Shown piece after piece: positions 3,131 to 35,845 of a stretch of 64,000 bases of DNA (the stretch's first letter is position 1; each line of letters starts with the position of its first letter). The DNA lies in assembly GCA_963971425.1 (NCBI GenBank), contig OZ020524.1:10729845-10793844 (forward strand), given 5' to 3'. Both the position numbers and the translations under genes were made by a program. This stretch comes from Bryoerythrophyllum caledonicum (Eukaryota; Streptophyta; Bryopsida; Pottiales; Pottiaceae). The notes below the pieces were generated by a model that saw nothing but the letters and a program-made list of their open reading frames with translations, was not told the origin of the DNA and did not search any database.

Positions 3131-4303
3131 GATCATTTTGCAACTTCTCAAAAATGTAGTAGGTGCAATAATGATCTCAATATGAATTGCCAAGTTGAAT
3201 GGAGACTCAACACAAATAGAAACTTTTGTAACCATTGTATACCTTGTATGTCAAATACATTGGAAACATCATATTGTAATCCAAATGTGGCTTCTCAAAC
3301 CTTTAAGGGTTAACCTCTTACTCAATATAAATAGATTATGTTTCTTTCAAGAAGAACAAGAACACATTTTAGCTATCAAATAAAGGTGACATGATTGTGC
3401 ACACAATACTTCATTTTTGTACCATATACCAAGTAAATGTATAGTACAGTACCCGGAAGAATGTATTCAACTACGGGACTTTTCATTCAATAGAGACAAT
3501 ACACTGTAGAGAAGATACAATTGAATTTATTACAACATTACAGATTTCTGGGAACACAAGGTAGCACAACGGAGTTGGAGTCTTTGACATCATATTAGAT
3601 TAAAAATCTATAATGTAATCTTCTTCTCTATTGTATGAATTGCACAAAAAAATGAAGATCTCTACCATAAAATATTATGACCTTGGGCTTCCACCACTCC
3701 CTCCATTCGACTTGGCATGGATGAAACAAAATTACGTAGAGTGTCTTGCGATATAGCTTCCCAAGCTGCATTGACGTGCTCCCACATTCTTTCCTTATTC
3801 TTTGGTCGGGACCTTTTTTGAACTCGATCTTTACAGACCTTCCACAAGTTCTCTATAGGGTTGAGATCAAGTGATTCTGCTGGCCATTTAAACTTCTTTA
3901 GCCCAATTTCTTTCCTCCACCTTGCTACAACACGACTACTATGCACTAATGCACCATTCCTCCATCAAAAGCAATTGCTCATGTTCTCATGGTGATAACA
4001 ATAAGGCTCTAATGCCGACTGATACACAACATCTAAAAAATCTAAAGCTTTGCATTTATCGTGAAGAATTAACACCAAATAGCATTTAGAAGAGGCAGTG
4101 AAAGCTCCCGATACCATTATAGATGTCCTTCTTGACTTGAACGTGGGTGCTATACAATCCCAGTGGTATCATTTGTAAGACTTTTGCCACACTCGTATTT
4201 GACATGAATGCTTTCCAATCTCAAATGATGATTCGTCTGTTCACATGACTTGACCCCGATCTTCCACTGTCCAATGTAGGTGCCTTGTGGCAAACGCATA
4301 TCT

Positions 4304-4442
4304 AGAAGAAGAAGAAGAAGAAGAACGCCGATCTCCGAAGGAGGCCGGCGTGAATAAAGTGTCTGTTCGTTCCACTACTAAGACCAAGCCCACTGGACAA
4401 GGAATTAGTAAGTTGGAACTACTTCCCTCTCTCGAGGGTAGA
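4304..4442 (-). mobile_element. 5'-truncated LINE 3' end, 139 bp
   Basis: The insert is the reverse complement of the last part of the full LINE at 22667-35846: it has the (TTC)n tail (seen here as agaagaag), the terminal stem-loop at 4327-4349 and the 'acactttattcacgccgg' and 'ggaagtagttcca'-like blocks. It is flanked by a perfect 13-bp duplication, caaacgcatatct, at 4291-4303 and 4443-4455. This is a target-primed insertion that stopped after about 140 nt, and it independently defines the family's 3' end. Confidence 0.9.
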
Positions 4443-5054
4443 CAAACGCATATCTATCTCTTATGTGTTTTGGGCTTATAAACAGTTTCTTAGTAGCTAC
4501 ACAATAGTTCATCCCAAAGTCATGCACATATTTACGAAGTGTTCTAATCGTCACAAGAACTAGAAGGTTTTTCTGCAATTTCAAACGAAGGTGATCTACG
4601 ATTCTTGTGCAACTCACGTAAAAGTATTCTTTTACTAAACTCGTTCAACTTCTTTGGCCTTCTTGACTTCTCTACAATCTTCACCTCTCCACGTTCACAG
4701 TATCTCTTAGGAAGGTTTTACACTACGGTGGAGAACTCCACCGGCCGGTCAAGAAGTCTCGCCCAAGACGTGGTTATTTGAGGCGAGCGGTGGATGTTGG
4801 ACAAGACAAAAAAAGAATAAAGTAATGCATGAAGAAGTCTTGACCGGTTAGTGGTGTAAACATCCAACGGTGAAGTCCACCGGCCAACTTCATAAGGTGA
4901 AGACCAACGGTGAACTTCACCACCAAGAAAGTTTATGCTAGCCAATGGAAACCACAATTTCTAATGGTCCCCATGGACATATTATGTACATTATGGGCTC
5001 TATTGAACTGCAAAAATTTATATCTTTTGCATCAAATGTCCAAATGTAGTAACA

Positions 5055-15567: not shown

Positions 15568-16446
15568 TCAACAAGGGCAAGTCCAATCCCTGGACGTCAG
15601 AGAAGAAAGAGGCGGCGTCAAGCAAGCCATATGCCAACCACGCTGGCAATGGTCACAAAGCAACATGATAGCCGCGCCCTTCTTTTCACCACACACCAAA
15701 CACGGAAGGCCGCTTGTCACAACGACCAACTCTAGAAGAACAGAGCCATCAAAGGATAAATGGCAGAGAGCATAATTCTTAGAGTGCTCCCAATACTCCC
15801 GGCCATCCTTGCCTCCCAGCAATAAGATACCATTGGACAATACATCCTTCACGAGAAGAATAGTGCGCCCTACCTTGACGTCCAATGTCGTGGGTGCCTT
15901 ACGCTGCAGATAAATATAATCCCCTATGGAAAAACGTTGCAGCTGAGGCCAGTAGGCACCGCTACAAATACTAGCAAACCGTAAGGTGTCACGGTGCTGA
16001 GCGATGAACAAGTTCTCCATGGCCATAGGCATAGCCCGCTTGAAGAACTCCGCTTGATCCCATAGACATTGGACCCACACCTCTAGATTGTCCAAATCCA
16101 CAACCGGAGCCAACTTTTCTTGAACGGAACTCGGTAAAATTGGCTCTCGCCCGTACAACAATTGATACGAACTGAAAGCTGGTAGTGAAGCCTGCCAGCT
16201 AAACCAATATTCCATGGCAATCCATGGTATCAATAGATTCCAATCACGGTGGTTGCCTTGAAGTAATCCATACTTCCGTAGGCCCTGCTTTACGATCTGA
16301 ACTATACGCTCCGCCAAATCATCCGCTTTCGGGTGATCCCAAGAAGTGGTACGATGGTTAATCAAAGCCTTGGTACACAAAGCTTCGAAAGCCTTAAGGA
16401 ACTCACGCCCCTGGTCCGTCAAAACCTCAGTTGAGGCTCCAAACAA
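15568..16446 (-). pseudogene. Ty3/gypsy integrase core with C-terminal PHD finger (fossil)
   Basis: The longest surviving reading frame of the fossil, 292 residues. It has the integrase core (TDQGREF, DHPKADDLAERIVQ) and the DWNLLIPW and LLYGREP motifs, then a basic, SH3-like stretch, and ends in a C4HC3 zinc finger of the PHD type: CLVC, CDHC, HMAC and WTCPC. PHD fingers read histone tails in host proteins; in this position it may serve target choice, as chromodomains do in chromoviruses. That role is inference. Confidence 0.75.
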
Positions 16447-16744
16447 GCCAACTCCCGGTTGAGGAATGCCATGGCCGCCAACTCTGAAGAGTTCTACGGA
16501 AGAGCCACGAGCTCAATCCACTTGCTGAGATGCTACACCATCACCAAGACATACTTGGCTCCGCGTAGAGTCACGACAAGTGGACCAACAAAGTCCAAAG
16601 ACCATCGGTCTCCTAGCCTCCCAATGGGCAAAGATCGCAACTGCGATGACATGGTATTGAAGCTAGATCGAATCCGATCACATACTTCACATCAAAAAAC
16701 ATACGTGGCAACCTGCTGATACATGTCGGTCCACCAATACTTGC

Positions 16745-22306: not shown

Positions 22307-23545
22307 ACAACATTTGCAACTAATATTTGTTCAAATGCCTAGTGAATTGCAATTTAGGGTTTAACCAGAGAATTTGAAGCTCTACATGGCATTTGATATA
22401 TCGTACGCGCAATAAATGGGTCGCATATTGTGGGATTGGCGCCAATGGTTGGTAGTCTTCATGATTGGATTGCTTTGGAAGTTATAAAAATTGGAAGAGC
22501 TTGTATAGAGGGGAAATTGCATCGGTACAAATTGATAGGAGATGCATCATATCTTGTTAGATCGTGAATGTGTAGTCCATTCAAGGGAGGAAAAACTTAA
22601 TTGTCACAAATCCATGGAAATCAAATTTTCATTCAATCTTCAACCCGAATGTATGTGAAGAGGGCAATGCTTGAAAAACGTATCCCTCTGGTTGAGGATC
22701 GAGGGATGGCTGAGGAGTAGCTCCGCAAAACCTGGTGAGGAGAGGCTTGGTGTTAGTCACATTTGCATCATGTTTGTAGTGAGAGTTGCTGGGCCTCACT
22801 ACCAACCCCGAACATGTTTGCCTTGTGAATAATGATGTTTCTAGTGGCATTTTGTGTTGGAGAGGGGTTTTAGATCCAGATCTAGATTATGAATTGTGCA
22901 AGGAGTTGTTTCTGGATCTAGCTTGACTTGGAGAGGTAGAACTGAGGCGAGCACCCTGTGTTGGACCAAATCTGCTAAGATCCAACTCAAACTTGTATAT
23001 TGACATCCTCTAGATCTAGATCTAGTGTTGGAAGTCGACTGGAAACATTGCAGCCAACGCCTCTCTAGCCTGGAAAAGCAACAATAGATGCAAGAGAAAA
23101 AGCGTGGGACACAAGAGAAGCCTCACCAGCAACATCAATCAAAATGCAAGCAAGCAACCATCTCAGCTAAGCTCCTTTCAATATCCATTCTTTTCATTGT
23201 CGCTTTTATTGCAAGTTATGCTCGTATACTTAACCTAGGATGCATATTATATAAAAGAGAAGTAGAACAACTTGGAGCAAGCTTTAGCCCAGCACCAGCG
23301 CTGCTGGCGGGATCAAACAAAGACACAGAAGTTCAGCCGGAACCAACAGCCCCCGCATCAAGACATACAGGACAAGATCGAGCCCACCGAGTATTGGCTG
23401 TAACGAACCCCGACCAGGAAACTACACCAAAAATCCACACATCAACCCGCAACGCCAGAGAGAGGCAGCAACCACCACGATCCGAAGCCGAACCGCATCC
23501 CGAAAACAACAACCGCCAACACACCTGCAGCACGCTACAAATCAG

Positions 23546-23609
23546 GTAAGCATTCTATACCTTACACTATCTAATATCAATACCATGGTTGTTGCCCAGC
23601 TGTCCACAG
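23546..23609 (+). other. Intron-like segment 1 (LINE 5' region)
   Basis: CAG/gtaagc donor; two possible acceptors, ttgcccag at 23599 and tgtccacag at 23609, giving 54 or 64 nt. T-rich inside an A/C-rich context. Confidence 0.5.
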
Positions 23610-23875
23610 GAACATCCAAGTACCAACAACAACAACTCATACGCATACAACAAAGACCAGCCTACCAACACCAAGACCACAAACGATGGCAAAATACTGA
23701 AGATCAGCCAACAGCTTGCGCCGAAAATCCACTCACCAAGTTTGCGTCCGACACCTTCCGCCCAGGCAGGAGCAGCCTACACCGACAGCCTGCAGCAGCA
23801 ACCACCAAAACCCGGGGCCGAACCGCATCTCGAAGGCAGCAAATGCCAATCCACCTGCAACACACAACAAACCAG

Positions 23876-23939
23876 GTAAGTATTCTGAACCCCTCACTAA
23901 ATTACATTATAACCATATATGCTGTCCAGTTGCCTACAG
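23876..23939 (+). other. Intron-like segment 2 (LINE 5' region)
   Basis: CAG/gtaagt donor; acceptors ctgtccag at 23929 or tgcctacag at 23939, giving 54 or 64 nt, the same two choices as segment 1. Confidence 0.5.
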
Positions 23940-24115
23940 GTACACACAAATACCTACAACAACAGATCATACGCTCAACCTGCCAACACCAAGACCGCAT
24001 ACGACCGCAAAACGCTCAAACTGAAGACACCAAAACTAAAAAAGATCGCACAAACTTCGCAAGCTCATCCAACAACTGCACTCGTCAAGACACATTCACA
24101 AAGTCCTCAATCCAG

Positions 24116-24171
24116 GTAAGTACTCTCAAACGATACTCATTTCCTGCCTACATTTTGTATTCTAACAACAG
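24116..24171 (+). other. Intron-like segment 3 (LINE 5' region)
   Basis: 56 nt: CAG/gtaagtactctc ... tctaacaacag. tctaac resembles a branch point. Confidence 0.5.
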
Positions 24172-24274
24172 GAAGGCCCAACCAAAAAACTCACGAATAG
24201 GAACCAGCACCGTGAGTGGATGCGAACCTCAACAAAGAGCTGCCATGAAGACACTCACAAAGTCCTCAATCCAG

Positions 24275-24330
24275 GTAAGCACTCTCAAACAATACTCATT
24301 TCCGACCTACATTTTGCATTCTAACAACAG
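24275..24330 (+). other. Intron-like segment 4 (LINE 5' region)
   Basis: 56 nt, CAG/gtaagcactctc ... tctaacaacag; a 159-bp-offset copy of segment 3 with few differences. Confidence 0.5.
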
Positions 24331-26109
24331 GACTACCCAACCAAAGAACCCACGAATGGGAACCAGCACCGAAAGTGGGTGCGAACTACAGCAAAAAGCT
24401 GCCATGAAGAACAAATGTCGCAAGCAACAAGAGAACAGCCCAATAAAGACCCCGAAGCCTACTCCCAGAAACAAAGATTCCGAGGAACAAGATCCAACAC
24501 TCGAAGAACCAACACTCAGAGGAAGCCGCACAACTACAATCGAGCAGACTCGGAGTTCCCACATGAGGGCGCACCTACACACAAGCCCACATCAACGGCC
24601 CCCTGGAAGCCTCAACCACGACCAAAAAAATAGTACACCTCAAAAATCAAATCCACACCCGACAGGCTGCCCTCCCAACGGCCAGACTCCAATCAGACGA
24701 CCTTCACGGCGGCCAGCAGAAGCAAAACCTAGCCGCCCACAACGACAACAACGAAAGCACGCATTAGCAACTGTAACATCCACTGCACCTCATCACAAAA
24801 CAAGGTATAAAGGAAGTTATCCCCCTCATACCAAACCCTCTTACAATGATGTTCCTTGTTGCAACACCCCCCCTTGCAAATACGCAGGTGCATATCATAG
24901 AAGAAGTCCCGCACAGCTTACCTGCGTAGCCGACGGACGAGACAAGTCGACGCACTGGCTGGAAGGACGCGACGAAGACCACAAGCAACGGCCTCCATCG
25001 ACACCAGCCTCAACCGACAGTAACACATACTCCAAACCTCCCATACTCCTCTCTGTTGTCTTGTTGCAATCTCTGGTTTTCTTTGGACAATATGCAAGAT
25101 CTAACCTAGATTTATTAGCTGCATTAGGTCAGTGCAAGAATCACCCGCCATCAAACGGAGGAGATCGCGCCCACCCCAATACGCCATCATCAACCACAGC
25201 TCCGATAAATCCTAGCGCGACACCTGCAGATCGAGGAAGACTGCAACCCACCCTAACCATCGCCACCCACGTCCACAGCCGCCAACGAACCTGCAGGGTT
25301 CGGGAGGATATCACCACTGAAGGGCTTGGAGGACCACCGAAACCAAAGCACTGCAGAGTTCGGAGGACCACTGAAGCCAAAGCAGCACTCAGGAGAAGAA
25401 ACACTGGAGATACCACCAAGGGAGGGAGGACATTCAATATTATCGAGAGAAGGAGCCCTGCCATGACCAGGCCAGGGAGACGCGAGATCGAACTGGAAGA
25501 CGCATGTGGAGCAAGGAGAACTGGGAGACGCAAGCGGAGCTAGCACGAACTGGGAGACAAGCAAGGGAGGAAGCTGCAGGCTGTACAGAGATGTCGCAAA
25601 TCCTCACAAGCCCCCCAACACGAAGCCCCTCGAAGTCGAGAAGGCCCACAAGCCTCCAGAAACCGCGAAGCCCCACAAGCCCCCCGCAGCCGCGAAGTCC
25701 CCCAAGCCTCCCGAAGCCACGAAGCCCGACAACGGCCAACCAGAGAATCAACGAAGCAGAGTGGATCCAACAGGTGAAACATCACACCCAACTCGAGCGC
25801 ACACTATCAGGTTATAGATCCCTACTACTCCTCTCTTTGATTACTAGTACTGTACCTCATTGGGTTTATTATGAAAACCAATGGGCATGTTTACAAATTC
25901 TAATATCAATCTTGTTAACTAGGGGGGGTGACCACTTCTATGGCACCTCTCACGTGTGTGTTTGTATGAATGTCACTAAAAGCTTTAGTCTCAATATCTA
26001 TCACTTAGGTTTCATTGTTGTTAGGGGTCAAGATACTTATTTGCAATTCATCTACATTGTTTCTCCTCTCTCCTTCTTGATCATATTAACTTCAACAAGC
26101 CCCCAACAC

Positions 26110-27776
26110 ATGTTGAGGGAAGAAGTTAATATCAAGGTGATAAGGGGTGATGCTTTAACAATCTTACACAACTCTGCTAGTAACACTCTTGCCCTTGATA
26201 TTGACAGCATGGATCAATTCCAAACCACGACTATTCCCACCAAGAGATTGTTTGTTGAAGTTGATGAGGAAAATGCATGTGCTACAAATGTATCTCAAAA
26301 TATGTTAGTTATTGCAAGTACCTCCCAGAAAAAGGTGAAGGCAACAAGTTTGCCTTACACTGAATACTGGCTGGGGTTCAACATAATGAATACTCTTGCC
26401 AAAAATCGGGGCAATCCAAAGATACCCATTGTTGCCATAGAGGAATTATTAAAAAACGGCCTTAATCCAAAAGAGGCAGCCGAAAGTTATGAAGCAATGC
26501 CTTCATATCCATTTGTTGCACAAGGGGAATGGCCATCTAAAAGGGCAGATGGTAAGAATGGCAATCACTTCAACCTTACCCAACTTCCAAGTGAAGTTGA
26601 GGTAGATGAAGATGGTGTTTCCTTAGATTACCAAGTTTCAATTCATTTTGAACTTGGTAATCAAACATGGACAAAAGAGGTTATACTAGACATGATAAAA
26701 GCAAGGCTAAAGGACATGAAAATTCCTCTTGGCACCACAATTGGTGAACCAATAGCCATCTTTTGCTACCACCAATCCGATAAATGGAATGGTGTTATCA
26801 AACTCCATCTAAAAAACCCCAAAATAGATGGAACAGGGTTATTGCAAGGGCTGAGACCTTTCATCCTCATCTTGGATGAAGGTATTCCACACAAAGGGAA
26901 AGTATGTAAAACATACGACGCCTTGGCCTTTTCACACCTTTTATCAGTAAAAATCTCAGGTCCTAACCTTGCCAATAAAGAACCACATGACTTGCATGCC
27001 GAAATTATAAAAGATAGTTTTGCAAGAGGTTATGACTTTGAAGTTACTGGGGTAGAAAAGAAAATATCTTTTGAATTTGCTTGGGTCAAAACCCCCTCCC
27101 CGGTGCAAGCGGCCAAAGTGAAAGACTACAAAATCTCATTTGATAATGAGATCTTTGTACCAGTCTTCGCAACCCGGAAGATGGATGAGGATGAGATCGC
27201 AAAAAAGAATTGTCTAATTCTCATTGCCAAAAACCTCAATAAAACCAAAAGTGAAAAAGAACTAGTAGAAGGCATAAAATCCATACTCGGGGAAGAGAAT
27301 GTGGTCGATACATTCTTCAAACTCGAACATGGACGGCATGTGGGGACGTGCAACATTGAATGCCTAAATGCAGCAGTGTATAAAAAATATGTTAAACAAA
27401 GCAAAAAACTCCACGGTAAGTACATAATGTTTACCCCACACCCTAAAAGTTTGGATGGTAGTAACAAACCAAACACGGATGAATTAACAAGATTAGGGTT
27501 CACGGATGTAAACTCGGCTGTAGCCAACGCGGTAATTGCCATGGAAAATGGCCCAATCAAGAGCAATGGTGTCACCCTACAACAACTCCGGCAAGAAATG
27601 AAGACCATGAAAGGGGAGATCGTGGAAGAAGCGAGACAATACGCAGACCTGGTACAAGCAAATACAGTAAAATCCCTCAGAGGGGAAATGTCAACTCTTC
27701 GGTCTCAACTCATTGCAACCATCATGGCAGCAGAGATGCAAGCATCGGAACGGGAGCAACGAGCCACTGAAAGTAA

Positions 27777-27795
<19 letters not shown>
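26110..27795 (+). CDS. LINE ORF1 protein (RRM-like, coiled coil)
   Basis: 561 residues from the ATG at 26110 (MLREEVNIKV). The frame is open upstream to 25504, but 25811-26100 is T-rich with a pyrimidine tract before 'aacttcaacaag', unlike the coding parts, so I chose the later start. Residues about 365-443 resemble an RNA-recognition motif: CLILIAKNLNKTKSEKEL, a helix, then HVGTCNIECLNAAVYKKY. Residues about 475-561 are strongly helical and charged (LQQLRQEMKTMKGEIVEEAR, then SEREQRATES), a likely coiled coil. RRM plus coiled coil is the known layout of many LINE ORF1 proteins, which bind the element's RNA and help form the RNP. No CCHC knuckle is visible. The residues 1-360 are unrecognised. 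Its end overlaps the open ORF2 frame by 19 nt. Confidence 0.75.
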
Positions 27796-28571
<776 letters not shown>

Positions 28572-31500
28572 ATGCCAAATGTCTTCCACAACCACCCAAA
28601 AATACACAAAAGATTATCAAAAATATATTTTATTCCGAACACTATAAAACTCCACCCCGAATATCAACACCTAGCATCTTCCTTTGCACCACTCCTAAAA
28701 AGTAATCACATACTTCACCAAAATTACTCTACCCTCTACCCCAACATTTCCCGCTACATACATAAAAAAAACAACCATCCACCCACACACATCTTATTCG
28801 CCATAATTACCACCCTCCACCCTTCAATAGACGAATGCAACAACATCACTAACCAAAATCCTACCAACACAAACCCAACACATTGGACAAATATACTACT
28901 AAATACCTTATCCACTCTAAATAATCCCCCCGAAAGACACATAGATACACTCCACCCATACACTAAGTTCCTAGAAGAAAATCAACACCTTTTCGAACAC
29001 AAAACTTCTCTACACAATGACCTATACAACTTTATTCATAGCCAAACCATACCTCCTTCCACTGATGAACTACAACTAAAATTTCCCTACTTTCCACACA
29101 ATCTCATCCTTGAAGCTCTTAGATGTTTTGAACCAATTCATGATTACACGCACCCCACCCCGACACCCGCCTACATTCCCCCCTCGCTTTGTAACCATGA
29201 CAATTCAAACAATAGAAATACATATATAGTTACATGGAACGCCTCAACGTTAAACACCGCTTTACCATGCATCCACAATCTAACCGCCCACACCAACACA
29301 CCACCCGCCATAATTGCTATACAGAAAACTAAAATAACAGCTACTAAATCCACAAAATATATTCAAAAAACATTTCATGATTATAAACTTATATTTAACA
29401 ACACCCATTCCCTCACACGTTGCATCCAACAACGTAGGCCATATACACCAGCAAGAGGAGGTCTACTCATGCTCATACATCAATCATATGCCTTCCCCGG
29501 GAATATTACTAAAATCCCTACCCCGGCCAATATATTACCATATCTCCAAGTGATTGAAATCACTAACCGACCCCTCCAACCATGGCTCATTCTCCACCTA
29601 TACATGCCCTCGCACATAGAAGACTCTAGATTTATTCCGGAAATCCAAAATTCCATCACTTCACAAATAAATACACACACTAATCACACAATAATACTTT
29701 GCGGAGACTTTAACCGAGACATCGCCCTTATTGGAAGACAAAACGGAGGGATTGTCACTCCTCCACTGGACATAGACTATCAATGGCAAAACTATACGAA
29801 TAACCTAGAATTACATTTAATTCCAACCGATACACAATACTCTCGGCAAGGTGGCCTTAATTACACTCACACTAGCCTAATTGATGGATTTTACATTAAA
29901 ACACCTAACCATACTCGATATACATCTATCACTAATACCTCAACCAACTTAAACTCAGACCACTTCCCAATCCTACTTAATATACCTCACAACACCCTTA
30001 TAAGCAGACCTCCCACTACCATCAAATCAAATGATATTAAAATATTAGACCCCATCCCAAAAGAAAACCTTGACAAATTTAATACTATATTCTTCGAAAA
30101 AAACTCACCACAAATAGACTCCCTCACAGATACTCTTTCTAACCACCAACACCTCACACATATACAATGGCAAGAAGCTTGCACGACCCTTGACAAACTT
30201 ATTAACGAAATTTCCACTACACTAGAAAAGACTTGTAAAGCGCCCCTAATACCACAACTTACACCTAGAACCTCAAAACAAGGGGGGTATCTCCCAAGAA
30301 AACTAGCCAAAAAGTGGAAACAACATCTTGCCGCATACCACACTATTCGCAAAACAATTTATATTACTAAAACCAACCAAAATTGGCAAACCCACCCCAT
30401 ACTCTCCGAACTACAAAACCTCCGTTATCCCCAAATCCCACAAGTACCACCACCCAACACCCCTCACGAAGACTGGCTAAAAGATATTGCAATCATTGCA
30501 AAAACCGCCAATAAAGAAGCCCGGAAAATTACCACAAAATATGCAAGAGAATGTGTTAAAAAAGCTATATCTAAATATCGTCAATTACACGAAACCAGCC
30601 CAAAAAAGATTAACAGAAAAGTCTTTAAAAACAACACAAACCTACCACTAGACTGCATTTTAGACCAAAACAATAACATATTAACTAGCCCAGAGGACAT
30701 TGCAAACGAAATACATCTTCAACAATCCATAAACAATAGACCAACCATCCCCCCATGTCACTTTCAACCACAACATTCACCAACATGCACATGCGGAGTT
30801 AGACAATACCCGTGGCATGAGCTAGACGGATTCACTATTGATAAAAGAGGCGAACCAACAACACCTCTCCACACATATTATAACAGAGACACATACAACA
30901 TGTGCCTAAAAAATCTGGGAACCAACAAAGCCCCTCGACCGGACCATATACCCAACTCAATTCTAAGAAATATGCCCCCAAGATTCCATGATCTTCTATC
31001 ATTATTTTTCCTTCACTGCTACAAACAAAAATCCATTCCCACATCTTGGAAAACAAGTCTAACAATCTTACTTTACAAAAAAGGAAACCCATCTGCATTA
31101 TCTAACCACCGACCTATTGCCTTAGCTAACACCATTTACAAATTATATACTAGTAAACTAAAATCAATATTATCGGCTTATGGAGAAATACACCAAATTT
31201 TACACGAAAGCCAAGAAGGGTTTAGAGCCGAGAGAAGTACCACACGACAACTTCAAACCCTCATTGCCGCTCTTGAGGATGCAAAATTCACGAATAAAGA
31301 TATCTACATACTCTATATTGACTTCAAAAACGCATTTGGTTCCATTGACCATCCTAGACTGCTAGCAGTTATGAGTGATCTTGGATACCCGGAAGACGCA
31401 GTCACACTAGTTGGCAATATATACTCCCAATCTACCACTACATACGTCGGAGAATTCTTTGGTAAAACACGCCCGATCCCCATCCAACGTGGCACCATCC

Positions 31501-32228
31501 AAGGCGATACACTGAGCCTATACCTCTTTATTATTTTTCTAGAACCTCTTCTGAGATGGCTTCAAAGAGGCAATAATGGCTACACATTTGGAACCTCTAA
31601 AATCACCATAAATTCGGCCGCATATGCCGACGATCTAGCGGCCATCTCCGGACGTCTTAAATCACTCCAAATTCAATTAGACAAAATAGACAAATTCTGT
31701 CTATGGACCGGGATGGAACCCGGGGTCCAAAAATGTGCCGTAACCGGATGCCCAAACAAGTCCAAAATAAATCCGACCGCCTTCAAAGCTCTTATCCAAG
31801 CTACCAATATCCACTATCGTAACCAACCAATTCCGGTTCTCAACCAAAACCAATCCTACATATACCTTGGAATAAACCTCGTCCCATCTTTAAAATGGAA
31901 AATTCAAATTCACGCTACTACTACAAAACTTATTAAACAATGCAGGGAACTTACACTCTGTCCGGCCACATTGCAACAAAAAATAAAAATGATTGATACC
32001 GTTATACGTCCGGGTATCTCATACAGTTTTTATGCGGTCCCTTACTCCATGCCCGCCATAAACAAACTTGATAAAAAAATTATAGCCATACAAAAGAAAG
32101 TATGCGGACTCCCTGATTGTACGCCCAATGTCATAACACAACTCCCCCACGAACTATTTGGATTAGAAGCTTTTTCCATTAAAAATGCCTATTTAGTTGT
32201 ATTGGAGAACAACTCCAGAACGCACTAA
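28572..32228 (+). CDS. LINE ORF2, N-terminal part: APE endonuclease and reverse transcriptase
   Basis: 1218 residues. Residues 1-215 are an unrecognised N-terminal part. The APE-type endonuclease occupies about 218-470: VTWNAS (218-), AIQKTKI (about 249), GDFNRD (about 377), DGFY and SDHFPIL (about 462). The usual LQET glutamate is Lys here (codon aaa). The reverse transcriptase occupies about 790-1130: LYKKGNPSALSNHRPIAL, QEGFRAERSTTRQL, LYIDFKNAFGSIDH (first Asp), QGDTLSLYLF and AAYADDLAAISG with the YADD box (about 1018). Catalytic Asp residues are all present. A thumb-like region follows. The frame ends at 32228 after LVVLENNSRTH, while homologous-looking sequence continues in the next frame, so this is one gene with a frameshift at about 32183-32228. 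Confidence 0.9.
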   Translation: MPNVFHNHPKIHKRLSKIYFIPNTIKLHPEYQHLASSFAPLLKSNHILHQNYSTLYPNISRYIHKKNNHPPTHILFAIITTLHPSIDECNNITNQNPTNTNPTHWTNILLNTLSTLNNPPERHIDTLHPYTKFLEENQHLFEHKTSLHNDLYNFIHSQTIPPSTDELQLKFPYFPHNLILEALRCFEPIHDYTHPTPTPAYIPPSLCNHDNSNNRNTYIVTWNASTLNTALPCIHNLTAHTNTPPAIIAIQKTKITATKSTKYIQKTFHDYKLIFNNTHSLTRCIQQRRPYTPARGGLLMLIHQSYAFPGNITKIPTPANILPYLQVIEITNRPLQPWLILHLYMPSHIEDSRFIPEIQNSITSQINTHTNHTIILCGDFNRDIALIGRQNGGIVTPPLDIDYQWQNYTNNLELHLIPTDTQYSRQGGLNYTHTSLIDGFYIKTPNHTRYTSITNTSTNLNSDHFPILLNIPHNTLISRPPTTIKSNDIKILDPIPKENLDKFNTIFFEKNSPQIDSLTDTLSNHQHLTHIQWQEACTTLDKLINEISTTLEKTCKAPLIPQLTPRTSKQGGYLPRKLAKKWKQHLAAYHTIRKTIYITKTNQNWQTHPILSELQNLRYPQIPQVPPPNTPHEDWLKDIAIIAKTANKEARKITTKYARECVKKAISKYRQLHETSPKKINRKVFKNNTNLPLDCILDQNNNILTSPEDIANEIHLQQSINNRPTIPPCHFQPQHSPTCTCGVRQYPWHELDGFTIDKRGEPTTPLHTYYNRDTYNMCLKNLGTNKAPRPDHIPNSILRNMPPRFHDLLSLFFLHCYKQKSIPTSWKTSLTILLYKKGNPSALSNHRPIALANTIYKLYTSKLKSILSAYGEIHQILHESQEGFRAERSTTRQLQTLIAALEDAKFTNKDIYILYIDFKNAFGSIDHPRLLAVMSDLGYPEDAVTLVGNIYSQSTTTYVGEFFGKTRPIPIQRGTIQGDTLSLYLFIIFLEPLLRWLQRGNNGYTFGTSKITINSAAYADDLAAISGRLKSLQIQLDKIDKFCLWTGMEPGVQKCAVTGCPNKSKINPTAFKALIQATNIHYRNQPIPVLNQNQSYIYLGINLVPSLKWKIQIHATTTKLIKQCRELTLCPATLQQKIKMIDTVIRPGISYSFYAVPYSMPAINKLDKKIIAIQKKVCGLPDCTPNVITQLPHELFGLEAFSIKNAYLVVLENNSRTH

Positions 32229-35200
32229 ACGATAAAGGACGACTAGGACTAATCTACAGTGGACTCCTTTGGCATATACTTGCCATTTATGGAGGAGCAC
32301 AATACCTCCAAAGATTTAAAAAATCCGACTGTCTTAGGTCCCCCATTACCCGCACGCTTTTCCTACTCAAAACAGAAGGTCAAACATTTCTAAAAAGCAC
32401 ACTAGAAGATTTCCTACTAGACCCCGCGCCACTCGAACAAAACTGGGCAAATGAAATACATAACCTCCCTAGACTTGACCGCCAACTATCCGACAAACTC
32501 CTACAAAAACTTTTCTCCGCAAACATTACCGATCTAAAACAAATCACACTACCAAATGGAACACACCTTATGAACGACAAGAACTACAAAAAAATCTATG
32601 GTACCCCTCATAAATTAATAAAAAGTGCACTAAATATTGCCAAACAATTATTTTGTAACCCTACATGTCTCCCTATATGCCCTAACCCTTGCACCAACCA
32701 CGCCCCACCGTACACACTTAAAGACTCATACATCATCAATCACAATGGCATCCACCCCAACATCAACCCCCCACTAACCCCTCCAAACCCGCCACATTCA
32801 CGTCCATATGCCCCTCCACCACATATACTAAAAAATCCTTCCATACACCCAATAAACAACATAACCGCGCACAAACATAGAAAGTACATTGACTCTAACA
32901 ACATAAGCAAACAATATACAACATACCTATGCCATTGGTCCCACAATAACAACACCTACGCCAAATGGCTTCCACAAGGAAATCTTTTCCCTTGGCACAA
33001 CCCAAACGCCTCCTTACATAACACCGAAATCCTCACACAATACTACCTTAGAACCCAAAACAATTATTACCTAAACATCATACAATTACACCACCCCCAA
33101 ACACAACCTCGTGATAGAAGATTTGTCACGCCACCTCTTATTATCCCCCTCCTTAACATCTTTACAACCAAATGCAACCCGGAAACTGACATCCTAGCAC
33201 AAACGAATACAATCAAAATACAACAAGATAATGCCCACATATACGAAGATAACGGTAGACATCTAATAACCATACCACTCGCTAGACTACAATGGCTGTG
33301 GAACCAATATCACAACGCACTACAAACCCCCATTAACATTGAACCAATACCCCAAACATTTGAAACCGAAATTGTTTGGCTATACCAAAGATATAAATAC
33401 CGCATACCCAAAAATGACCCCCTTAAAAATGCACACTACACATTACCCGATCCTATCCTAGACTACCTTATTACCTCTCTGAATATTACACATTCATACT
33501 TCTCATCCCCCGTTACATGCTCCACAAAAATCTCCAAATTTTACTCTCCATTTGAATGCGATAAGATTTTTGGTTCTCTTGGAAAAGCTTTTGATTACAA
33601 GTGGAGCGGAATAGGCCTTGCACACCCTCACAACGAAGAAGAAACACAACAAGCAATACATTGGGCACGCGTAGCGGCAAATAGTGATCCCAACCACAAC
33701 ATCACCATTATTATCACTTCCGACACTCATTGGTACCACAACCCTAACCCACACTTAGGCCCATTCCCGGACTCTCACATTATAGTATTATTTGAAGCAG
33801 ACTCTATGACTTACAAAGAACCCACTATACCACCGCAAACACAAACACCCCGCCTTGAACCAGCAACTCTACGTATCCACTGTATACATCAACAAACTCA
33901 AGAAATAGGTACTCTAGAAAACCTCACTCATCTCACGTTGATAGCAAAAAATCTAAACATTAACAAGGTATACACCGCAATTGCCTCTCCCACACCCATT
34001 TCAACCCGTGTAAACCGCAGCAAAAAAAGGTCTAAAACCCCCCACGCAAACATCTCCACATCACCAATCACCGAATGGAGCCTCCCCCTCCCCTACTACC
34101 AAATTAATACAGACCTTAAATTTGACCCCAACTTTAGCTACTACACTGACGGCTCCTTTAAAGAACCAACCAGAGTAAGCCTGGGACATTGGCACCGAGA
34201 AAAAGCTGGTTATGGGATATACAATTCAACCAAACAAATAAAAATAGGCAAAAGACTACATGGACTCAAAAATATTCTAAGAGCCGAGATGATGGCTATA
34301 CACAAAACCCTTAAAATAATCACCACTCAATACCCAAACGAACCAGCTCACATTTTTACAGATTGCATAAATGTATTACATCTCCTCAATACACACATTA
34401 AACACCCCACTTTACACAATAGTCACCCGGATAAAACAATCCTCACATCTATGGTTGCAATGCTCCAAAACCGTACACACATCACTACACTCCACAAAGT
34501 CCGAGCACATGATATCGATGGCAATGAACAAGCCGACAAACTAGCAAAGGAAGGAAGAGAAAAAACCCACAAGAACGCCGAACACCCATACGAACACGCC
34601 CATGCCACCCCATATTACTTTCATAGATATGAATGGCCCTCTATGGGTGAAACTCCCGATAAAGGCCCCATACGATTCTTGGATAAATACCTCAAAAAAC
34701 ATGATCTGGTAAATAATCTAGAAAATCTTACAGAAAACTTCCCCAATATTGATAAATGGACTGGCAACCCAAACATTCATAATGAAATGTCCAACAACTT
34801 TTGGAAAAACCCCATTATAACGGATCCACAAATTACATGCCTAATCAAATTCCGCACCGGACAATACATGGGTAATGCCCGCAAACAACTCTTCTTTGGA
34901 ATGGAAAGATTTCCTACAATTACATGTCCAATTTGTAACACCACGGACCCGGACACATGGCTACATATCCTACTCAAATGCCAAAACCCCCATATACACT
35001 CACTAATTGTCAAAAGACATAACAAAGCCGTATGGGCTATTCGTAAACTACTTATATCATCCACCAAATCCCGATGTTTCATTCTCATGAATGCCGGAAC
35101 CTTTAATGACAACCCACAAGAAAATACGGTCCCTCCTTGGCTATTACCCTGCATCTGTCATACCCAAAGATGCCACTGTAATGCAAGATTTAAACCAGAC

Positions 35201-35602
35201 CTATTATGTGTTAGAGGACTTTCATACAAAGACCCCCCACCAAACCACATAGACCCTAGTCTCACCATCCAATTTATTGAATTCACATATTGCAATGATA
35301 GATTCTCCCCGGACACCATAGCAAACAAAACAAATAAATACCAACCACTACTTGACGACATCCAAGCACTAGGACGGAAAGTAGACCCCCTCATTGTCAT
35401 CACCGCGGGTGCTAGAGCCACCACCTTCATTCCCTCAATGACAACCCTTGAAGAAACATTTAAAATCCCCATCACTTCAATCAAAACCACCTTTTCAAAT
35501 ATTAACACTATTGCAATTCAACATGCTATGTCGATACTCCTACATAAACGTAAACTTGAAAACAACCAACCCCTTCCGGTCACCTCAAACCCCCTTCCAT
35601 AG
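32183..35602 (+). CDS. LINE ORF2, C-terminal part: RNase H, CCHC knuckle and PD-(D/E)XK endonuclease
   Basis: The continuation of ORF2, open from 32183 (first ATG 32570). RNase H at about 34117-34560: YYTDGSF (Asp), RAEMMAIHKTL (Glu), FTDCINVLHLL (Asp), and VRAHDIDGNEQADKLAKEG (His/Asp). A CCHC knuckle C-X2-C-X9-H-X4-C starts at about 34927 (CPICNTT...LHILLKC). At 35185-35420 a PD-(D/E)XK-like domain: FKPDLLCVRG, then IQFIEFTYCND, then NKTNKYQPLLDDI and VITAGARAT. Knuckle followed by KPD...E/D...KxxKY is the arrangement of the restriction-like endonuclease (REL) of R2-type LINEs. A Cys-rich strip PCICHTQRCHC lies just before. With the APE domain upstream, the whole gene encodes two endonuclease types. 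The segment 32570-34100 is unrecognised. Confidence 0.8.
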   Translation, partial: KCLFSCIGEQLQNALNDKGRLGLIYSGLLWHILAIYGGAQYLQRFKKSDCLRSPITRTLFLLKTEGQTFLKSTLEDFLLDPAPLEQNWANEIHNLPRLDRQLSDKLLQKLFSANITDLKQITLPNGTHLMNDKNYKKIYGTPHKLIKSALNIAKQLFCNPTCLPICPNPCTNHAPPYTLKDSYIINHNGIHPNINPPLTPPNPPHSRPYAPPPHILKNPSIHPINNITAHKHRKYIDSNNISKQYTTYLCHWSHNNNTYAKWLPQGNLFPWHNPNASLHNTEILTQYYLRTQNNYYLNIIQLHHPQTQPRDRRFVTPPLIIPLLNIFTTKCNPETDILAQTNTIKIQQDNAHIYEDNGRHLITIPLARLQWLWNQYHNALQTPINIEPIPQTFETEIVWLYQRYKYRIPKNDPLKNAHYTLPDPILDYLITSLNITHSYFSSPVTCSTKISKFYSPFECDKIFGSLGKAFDYKWSGIGLAHPHNEEETQQAIHWARVAANSDPNHNITIIITSDTHWYHNPNPHLGPFPDSHIIVLFEADSMTYKEPTIPPQTQTPRLEPATLRIHCIHQQTQEIGTLENLTHLTLIAKNLNINKVYTAIASPTPISTRVNRSKKRSKTPHANISTSPITEWSLPLPYYQINTDLKFDPNFSYYTDGSFKEPTRVSLGHWHREKAGYGIYNSTKQIKIGKRLHGLKNILRAEMMAIHKTLKIITTQYPNEPAHIFTDCINVLHLLNTHIKHPTLHNSHPDKTILTSMVAMLQNRTHITTLHKVRAHDIDGNEQADKLAKEGREKTHKNAEHPYEHAHATPYYFHRYEWPSMGETPDKGPIRFLDKYLKKHDLVNNLENLTENFPNIDKWTGNPNIHNEMSNNFWKNPIITDPQITCLIKFRTGQYMGNARKQLFFGMERFPTITCPICNTTDPDTWLHILLKCQNPHIHSLIVKRHNKAVWAIRKLLISSTKSRCFILMNAGTFNDNPQENTVPPWLLPCICHTQRCHCNARFKPDLLCVRGLSYKDPPPNHIDPSLTIQFIEFTYCNDRFSPDTIANKTNKYQPLLDDIQALGRKVDPLIVITAGARATTFIPSMTTLEETFKIPITSIKTTFSNINTIAIQHAMSILLHKRKLENNQPLPVTSNPLP

Positions 35603-35800
35603 ACCTACACTTGCATTTTGCATTTCACCGTACCTGCACTCCCTCTTTTAGTACATTTTGGGACCTAGTGTTCTTTGGTACTGGTTACTTGTTACTGGGT
35701 ACATAGTGTCCACCCTCGAAAGGGGGAAGTAGTTCCATACTACTAACCCATGCCCGGTGGGCATGGACTTAGTGGTGGAATGAACGGACACTTTACTCAC
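35603..35800 (+). other. LINE 3' UTR
   Basis: About 200 bp between the ORF2 stop and the terminal hairpin. It contains repeated 'ggtactggttacttgttactg' type words (about 35679-35700) and a short 'gcccggtgggc' palindrome at 35753-35763. The last 100 bp are shared with the truncated copy at 4304-4442. Confidence 0.7.
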
Positions 35801-35845
35801 GCCGGCCCCCTTTCGGGGACCGGCGTTCTTCTTCTTCTTCTTCTT
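35801..35845 (+). promoter_or_regulatory. LINE 3' stem-loop and (TTC)n tail
   Basis: 35801-35824 folds as a 10-bp stem (arms gccggccccc and ggggaccggc, loop tttc, one C/A mismatch), directly followed by gttcttcttc... to 35845. The copy at 4327-4349 has arms gccggcctcc and ggagatcggc: one C-G pair has become T-A, a compensatory change, and one G-C became G-T wobble. In LINEs of the eel UnaL2 type such a 3' hairpin is recognised by the reverse transcriptase; this role is inferred here. Confidence 0.7.

Follow-up and report, generated by a model that had tools for sequence, protein, structure and literature searches.

A probable Dualen-like retrotransposon of a streptophyte with a 2A-like peptide, a PCIF1-like domain and a REL-like C-terminus

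The Dualen/RandI elements of green algae are long interspersed nuclear elements (LINEs) that combine an apurinic/apyrimidinic endonuclease (APE) and a PD-(D/E)XK-like, restriction-like endonuclease (REL) in one element (PMC3636483, PMC4640811), and they have served in arguments on the passage of LINEs from REL to APE endonucleases (PMC4640811). We describe an element in a 64,000-nucleotide stretch of the Bryoerythrophyllum caledonicum genome (contig OZ020524.1, positions 10,729,845 to 10,793,844; hereafter the window), which lies on contig C12 of a host assembly of 437,360,962 bases. In our view, it is quite probably a Dualen-like retrotransposon of the type without long terminal repeats (LTRs), residing in a streptophyte; the copy has decayed slightly, and its family is numerous and was active recently. 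The pairing of APE with REL is known from Dualen; what is most likely new is a PCIF1-like domain with a changed motif, a 2A-like peptide and, tentatively, a chromodomain-like stretch. A high-copy, recently active streptophyte family that apparently carries both endonucleases would make the REL-to-APE shift testable at the bench, and the unusual combination prompts one to ask what use a single parasite makes of two DNA-cutting domains, a ribosome-skipping peptide and a piece that resembles an animal mRNA-cap enzyme.

The second open reading frame (ORF2) carries, in order, the 2A-like peptide, an APE endonuclease, a reverse transcriptase (RT), the PCIF1-like domain, RNase H, a CCHC knuckle and a REL-like C-terminus, with the chromodomain-like stretch preceding the PCIF1-like domain. 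The original prediction, made from the letters of the sequence, had treated positions 28572-35602 as one LINE gene with exact ends in a young copy. All the motifs that it quoted are found on the + strand where it had placed them, including RAEMMA and FTDC of the RNase H, which can be read in the ORF2 translation; its account of the extent and condition of the element needs correction. The interval runs from the ATG to the stop codon of ORF2 and not between the termini of the element, for the 2A-like peptide and an ORF1 lie upstream and the 3' end falls at about 35845, and the prediction was without four parts found here (the 2A, the PCIF1-like domain, the chromodomain-like stretch and ORF1). 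Neither is the window copy intact nor its ORF2 a single open frame, as it has lost an APE glutamate and is broken at 32183..32228 (+), where two open frames overlap.

The intact form is seen in its relatives. Four of the 18 copies that we fetched for comparison (L012, L013, L015 and L020) have an open, undeleted ORF2 that reads through the place of the window's frame break and runs stop-free for 2353 codons, counted from GDIETNPGP, and a divergent subfamily represented by L047 has an equally open architecture (2349 codons). Where ORF2 is open in a sister copy, the APE, RT, RNase H, CCHC and REL-like regions do lie on one polypeptide, as had been proposed. The ratio of nonsynonymous to synonymous change (dN/dS) of ORF2 between L012 and L047 is 0.09, at a dS of 2.2 that is near saturation (the N-terminal, APE and RT regions give an infinite dS and no ratio), and ORF2 is under purifying selection. 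When the genome was searched with the RT, the best 142 of 4,598 candidates were scored; besides the window copy they comprised 141 further places at 93-97% identity. With the final 803 bases of ORF2 as query, the best 40 of 4,585 candidates were scored, and 39 places other than the window copy matched at 95-98%. Among 17 copies the printed 3' flanks are all different from one another, so insertion is not bound to one site. The family is recent, high-copy and dispersed.

Within ORF2, the N-terminal 218 residues (28572..29225, +) match no family and are followed by the APE endonuclease (29226..29990, +, end approximate) with its motifs IVTWNAS (29226-29246, +), GDFNRD (29703-29720, +) and NSDHFPIL (29952-29975, +). 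The Pfam family Exo_endo_phos_2 matches a long piece at 5e-6, just below the cut-off, and the APE piece at 1.6e-6, just above it, and an alignment with exonuclease III has an E-value of 0.08. APE motif II (29310-29333) reads IQKT in the window, with lysine where exonuclease III, as aligned, has the glutamate of its LQE. All 13 fetched sister copies for which this motif was reported read IQET, the Glu-to-Lys change being private to the window copy; the count leaves aside L011, L014 and L021, which are 5' truncated, L019, in which the region is absent, and L022, which has no reported piece. The RT (30906..32129, +; RVT_1 4.4e-27 in Pfam) contains AYADDLA at 31620-31640 (+). Its best phmmer matches are R2 (9nl2, 5e-30), L1 ORF2p (1.3e-17) and the Bombyx protein R2Bm (8gh6, 5.7e-15), with 107, 98 and 98 bits for R2 chains, 66, 65 and 63 for L1 ORF2p and 57 and 53 for Bombyx R2, a ranking that, as far as such scores can tell, fits neither the R2 nor the L1 group cleanly. 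The RNase H (34136..34558, +; PF00075 2.3e-11) contains YYTDGSF (34139-34159, +) and AHDIDGNEQAD (34505-34537, +). The element has an APE endonuclease that shares an ORF with the RT, and an RNase H, as Dualen/RandI elements do.

The 2A-like (StopGo) peptide, HCKLLIILCGDIETNPGP, occupies 28518..28571 (+) in the ORF2 frame and adjoins the first ATG, with GDIETNPGP directly preceding 28572; it is a D[V/I]ExNPGP motif with a hydrophobic stretch upstream, the form that defines 2A. The same motif stands in frame with the element proteins of LINEs from trypanosomes (L1Tc) and sea urchin (PMC4981915), but those are described as APE-type, whereas here the 2A precedes an ORF2 with both APE and REL-like regions. 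A back-translated DIExNPGP pattern matched the genome 862 + 826 (= 1,688) times, as against 0 + 0 for the reversed pattern, and x was T, K, Q, A or I among 100 listed matches; the 1,688 matches in one plant genome constitute a large natural collection for StopGo work. Pairing of 2A with the PCIF1-like domain was tested where the 100 listed 2A places cover contig C1, that is below 34.4 Mb, and there 8 of 16 scored PCIF1 matches have a same-strand 2A 4.7-5.9 kb upstream, where 0.07 would be expected randomly.

Upstream of the 2A lies ORF1 (26110..27792, +, by alignment of copies), with 561 codons, a conserved start methionine and a coiled-coil-like C-terminus, which belongs to the element because fetched copies align with the window through it. 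Between ORF1 and the 2A is an (AAC)n array of 342 nt (28029..28370, +) that is stop-free in all three frames, encoding Asn, Thr or Gln; depending on the copy, it is read as poly-Asn or as poly-Gln. The overlap of ORF1 with the ORF2 frame is in the -1 direction and measures 121 nt in eight copies (L012, L013 and L015-L020) and 19 nt in the window and L024. We infer that in these ten of the copies examined the ribosome may pass from ORF1 into the ORF2 frame by a -1 step, after which predicted skipping at the 2A would free an ORF2 protein beginning Pro-Met. L047 is organized differently: in L047:143-9403, a single 3087-codon frame with five in-frame ATGs upstream of the 2A fuses ORF2 to a long Thr/Asn/His/Pro-rich N-terminal part, which holds two 2A-like stretches, the first degenerate (GGDINTRPN) and the second perfect. 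Alternatively, ORF2 of the window subfamily could simply start at the ATG beside the 2A, the latter being an unused relic of an L047-like ancestor, and we regard this as a substantial possibility, if not the favored one. It would account for several observations that weigh against the frameshift: 14 of 15 copies (window included) have no in-frame ATG in the interval that leads from the upstream stop to the 2A, L023 being the one that does, ORF1 sits in a different frame, a canonical slippery heptamer was looked for and not found in the ORF1/ORF2 overlap, and L016 has lost NPGP. With neither an upstream ATG in most copies nor a slippery heptamer, any path of translation into the 2A is putative in this subfamily. 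The relic sits less well with retention of the pattern in 14 of the 18 fetched copies, given that three of the other four (L011, L014 and L021) are 5' truncations that do not reach it, and with a preceding frame that is open over 54 to 589 codons.

At the other end of ORF2, the C-terminus has the motif order of R2 proteins. A CCHC knuckle (C-X2-C-X9-H-X4-C, 34925-34981) is followed by KRHNK (together 34925..35026, +), then by a second cysteine cluster, C-x-C-x4-C-x-C (35150..35179, +), whose second Cys is replaced by Tyr in 2 of the 13 copies aligned, and by the candidate PD-(D/E)XK core (35189..35440, +, end approximate), comprising FKPDLL (35189-35206, +), IEFTYC (35276-35293, +), NKTNKY (35324-35341, +) and then PLIVITAGARATT. 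The order CCHC, RHN, KPD, acidic residue, KxxKY is common to the window and three R2 proteins taken from PDB as references. With spacings that were set after the window had been seen, the whole CCHC-to-KxxKY pattern occurred in 0 of 300,000 shuffles and its KPD...KxxKY part in 108. All 13 copies in the alignment have the Asp of KPD, the IEF and the N-K..K-Y (KPD is complete in 11, with RPD in L056 and RRD in L051), the CCHC is kept across the aligned subfamilies except that L051 is cut short before it, and the dN/dS of the CCHC and REL region between L012 and L047 is 0.09. A single-sequence hhalign comparison with R2 gave P 0.0037, with 0 of 400 shuffles scoring as high, although the part without the CCHC was reached by 3 of 400.

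Other comparisons are less favorable to a REL. Between families hhalign gave P 0.03 and 0.035, column shuffles scored as high as the REL family alignment in 7 of 300 and 3 of 300 cases, overlapping CCHC-RHNK pieces without the full REL core scored 26.4 and 24.8 as against 24.6 for the whole, a large share of the score being due to CCHC-RHNK, and a PDB profile search with the family REL region did not retrieve R2, while a search with the REL piece alone retrieved one chance match only. The REL signature of the original prediction is thus upheld in its motif order and marginal in its profile comparison with R2; solid proof of a REL was considered and rejected, since shuffles and profiles are marginal, and the identification, statistically insecure, rests on the ordered, conserved motifs. 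The C-terminus could instead be a zinc-bearing nucleic-acid-binding domain without nuclease activity that keeps, or has converged on, KPD...KxxKY, which would leave an APE-only LINE; the marginal statistics, the CxC...CxC cluster, which is absent from the three R2 sequences, and a gap between KPD and the acidic residue that is longer than in R2 all point that way. Against this, a motif order equal to that of R2, its conservation in copies from several subfamilies and the low dN/dS make such a domain unlikely, and we take a REL to be the likely identity of the region.

Placement of the element in Dualen/RandI is likely on the sequence features so far described. Dualen elements carry a cysteine protease; no peptidase family was matched at E up to 1 in the Pfam-scanned pieces, where a divergent one could be missed. 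R2 elements use a single insertion site in the rDNA and are not known to have an APE, an RNase H or a PCIF1-like domain. Our element resembles them in its C-terminal motif order and in the matches of its RT to R2 proteins, but differs in its dispersed insertions. With Dualen/RandI it has in common an APE together with a candidate PD-(D/E)XK-like endonuclease, an RNase H (PMC4640811) and a 3' end of short-unit repeats and not poly-A, which are (ATT)n and (CTATTT)n in RandI (PMC3747384) and (TTC)n here; it differs in its PCIF1-like and chromodomain-like segments, its 2A and its streptophyte host.

PCIF1 (CAPAM) is the methyltransferase that writes cap-adjacent m6Am. Its relative in the element lies at 33350..33670 (+; PF12237 6.9e-10, P0002 residues 390-496), scoring 39.2 bits against a curated cut-off of 31.1. 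PF12237 matches all 16 aligned copies (best 9.8e-15), and a genome search with the domain, in which the best 150 of 2,614 candidates were scored, placed all 150 above the cut-off, 33 of them with an identical 50.6 bits and a 3087-codon frame; the same search matched none of 14 control genomes, a result of little weight. Comparison with animal PCIF1 by hhalign gave P 1.8e-5 and a probability of 78% (another comparison, E 0.09). The likeness covers the FGSxG region and its flanks, and the alignments set AHPHN (33620..33634, +) on the catalytic ANPPF. The domain sits inside a LINE polyprotein and has HPH[N/T/S] in place of NPPF, and because of this replacement we call it PCIF1-like and not a PCIF1 enzyme. 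FGSxG and AHPH are invariant in 16 of 16 aligned copies; in 45 printed stretches with the FGS motif (39 distinct copies) AHPH occurs 43 times and NPP never, the other two stretches, ADPH in L033 and APPH in L034, lying outside the alignment. Decay of a single copy as the cause of the loss of NPPF is ruled out, as the HPH form is common to subfamilies. The domain is under purifying selection, with a median dN/dS of 0.14 (0.07-0.27) in the 89 of 190 pairs with dS 0.2-1.5.

In PCIF1 the NPPF motif is required, mutants at N553 and F556 serving as inactive controls (PMC10544176), and in Drosophila PCIF1 a change of the F of NPPF to H goes with the absence of m6Am (PMC9479742). Since NPPF is altered though needed in PCIF1, and selection is purifying, the domain most likely no longer methylates and may have kept a role in RNA binding. 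It could still be a methyltransferase that uses HPH[N/T/S] as an altered catalytic motif to mark the RNA or DNA of the element, a reading that strong purifying selection and the invariance of FGSxG and AHPH would suit. There is also a precedent in charophyte and dinoflagellate retrotransposons, where a methyltransferase-family domain was likewise captured by a plant-lineage retrotransposon and can methylate (PMC5890265); those, however, are cytosine DNA methyltransferases acting de novo, whereas here the relative is an RNA adenine methyltransferase with its motif changed. With three of the four NPPF positions changed, and in view of the PCIF1 mutants and the Drosophila protein, we consider an active enzyme improbable. 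The domain offers in any case a natural experiment on the PCIF1 fold without its catalytic motif.

Retained as an RNA module, the domain might grip the mRNA of the element at its capped 5' end, which would let full-length copies be made. Cap binding is a conjecture: PCIF1 contacts the cap via its helical domain (PMC10544176), and this part, like the WW domain, was not identified in the element. A PDB profile search with the PCIF1 region alone gave weak matches (6irx, E 0.14). The fullest account that we would offer, and one that we hold to be less likely than not, is that a LINE captured a cap-adjacent m6Am writer, lost NPPF and keeps the domain under purifying selection to read the cap or 5' end of the mRNA that it makes itself, in a two-endonuclease polyprotein that a -1 frameshift from ORF1 would reach and the 2A would release. 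If true, the element protein would recognize both ends of its own RNA, which would explain a favoring of full-length copies. We found no convincing ordinary PCIF1 gene of the NPPF form with an animal query on the genome, in which introns could hide one; of 629 candidates the best 150 were scored (best E 6e-4, 28 bits), and at least 11 of the listed matches fall in fetched element copies, most others not having been inspected. Among the papers listed in a literature search that covered few subscription journals, none was on a PCIF1-like domain in a transposable element. The stretch that precedes the domain (32888..32989, +) is tentatively chromodomain-like: Pfam Chromo (PF00385) finds it in 5 of the 16 copies aligned (0.0011 at best), but not in the window row, whose first residues already fall within the stretch, or in P0002 with E-values up to 1, and a PDB profile search gave the CBX4 chromodomain at E 0.45.

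The element closes with a 3' untranslated region (UTR; 35603..35845, +, by copy comparison), in which conserved predicted hairpins are followed by a terminal (TTC)n. Its last ~150 nt have a mean column identity of 88% in 8 sequences that include L047, whose ORF2 stands at the near-saturated distance from L012 given above. RNAalifold predicts 51 pairs in the UTR, 3 of them with two-sided change, and the prediction is in keeping with a structure recognized in target-primed reverse transcription, although covariation contributes little (-0.52 of -60.8 kcal/mol) and speaks less for it; Rfam at gathering thresholds had no match in the window. In the cycle that we propose, the ORF2 protein would bind the 3' hairpins of its own RNA, the APE would nick one strand (in copies with the glutamate), reverse transcription would be primed at the nick and RNase H would remove the RNA, while the REL-like domain might be used for the second cut or for handling of target and branch. 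Exact target-site duplications flank two of four truncated copies, of 12 bp in L011 and of 14 bp in a second, 3'-end-only family copy in the window (4306..4444, -; TAGATATGCGTTTG, duplicates 4291-4304 and 4443-4456, thus 4291-4456 overall). L021 has a 14 bp duplication with one mismatch, where 12 nt with one mismatch arise by chance in 28 of 1,000 random pairs. For the main element of the window a duplication was looked for and not found, which counts against our reading of the element. Insertions seem to nest: directly upstream of truncated L011 lies an antisense relative (L011:691-6213, ~70% identity to window 29397-34914). In L014 the 3' part (L014:9630-9953) is inverted relative to the rest of the copy; 3' inversions in LINE copies are as twin priming would leave them.

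That unrelated elements were nested or joined into a false composite by the assembly, as the frame break in the window copy and the uneven identity of four copies (L009, L010, L012 and L019, at 77.6-79.0% in the 5' part and 95.8-96.8% in ORF2, for L019 most of it) might suggest, has a negligible probability and is ruled out, as far as one assembly can do so, by the same order and long open frames in many copies across contigs. The lower similarity of the 5' part in these four copies suggests that 5' modules were exchanged between copies. Ten of the 18 fetched copies align with the window up to 25801-26167, which in eight of them is near the end of the fetched stretch; the alignment of L024 and L026 begins at 26491 (66% identity), that of L025 at 27319 and those of L022 and L023 only at ~27,950-28,000, and L011, L014 and L021 are the 5'-truncated copies. 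Four ORF1 proteins are 55-80% identical to that of the window and have a C-terminal SN-stop in common. A Pfam scan of ORF1 gave no convincing family, and a PDB profile search gave weak coiled-coil matches only (a nucleoprotein fragment, E 0.23; vimentin, E 0.29). Upstream of ORF1 lies a long low-complexity open frame (23288-25543, +), which is possibly part of the element.

Scans of IMG/VR with P0002, P0001 and the RT alignment returned no relative. GRAS genes mark streptophytes, and 75 exon-level GRAS matches from 66 candidates (best 1.3e-144), together with 20 matches to the nuclear RuBisCO small subunit in the genome, support the streptophyte host that had been supposed from the letters. 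Elsewhere in the window, at 15571-16512 (-), a weak integrase-core match (rve, E 0.044) is followed by a PHD finger (3.5e-8), which looks like the integrase of an LTR element with a terminal reader domain.

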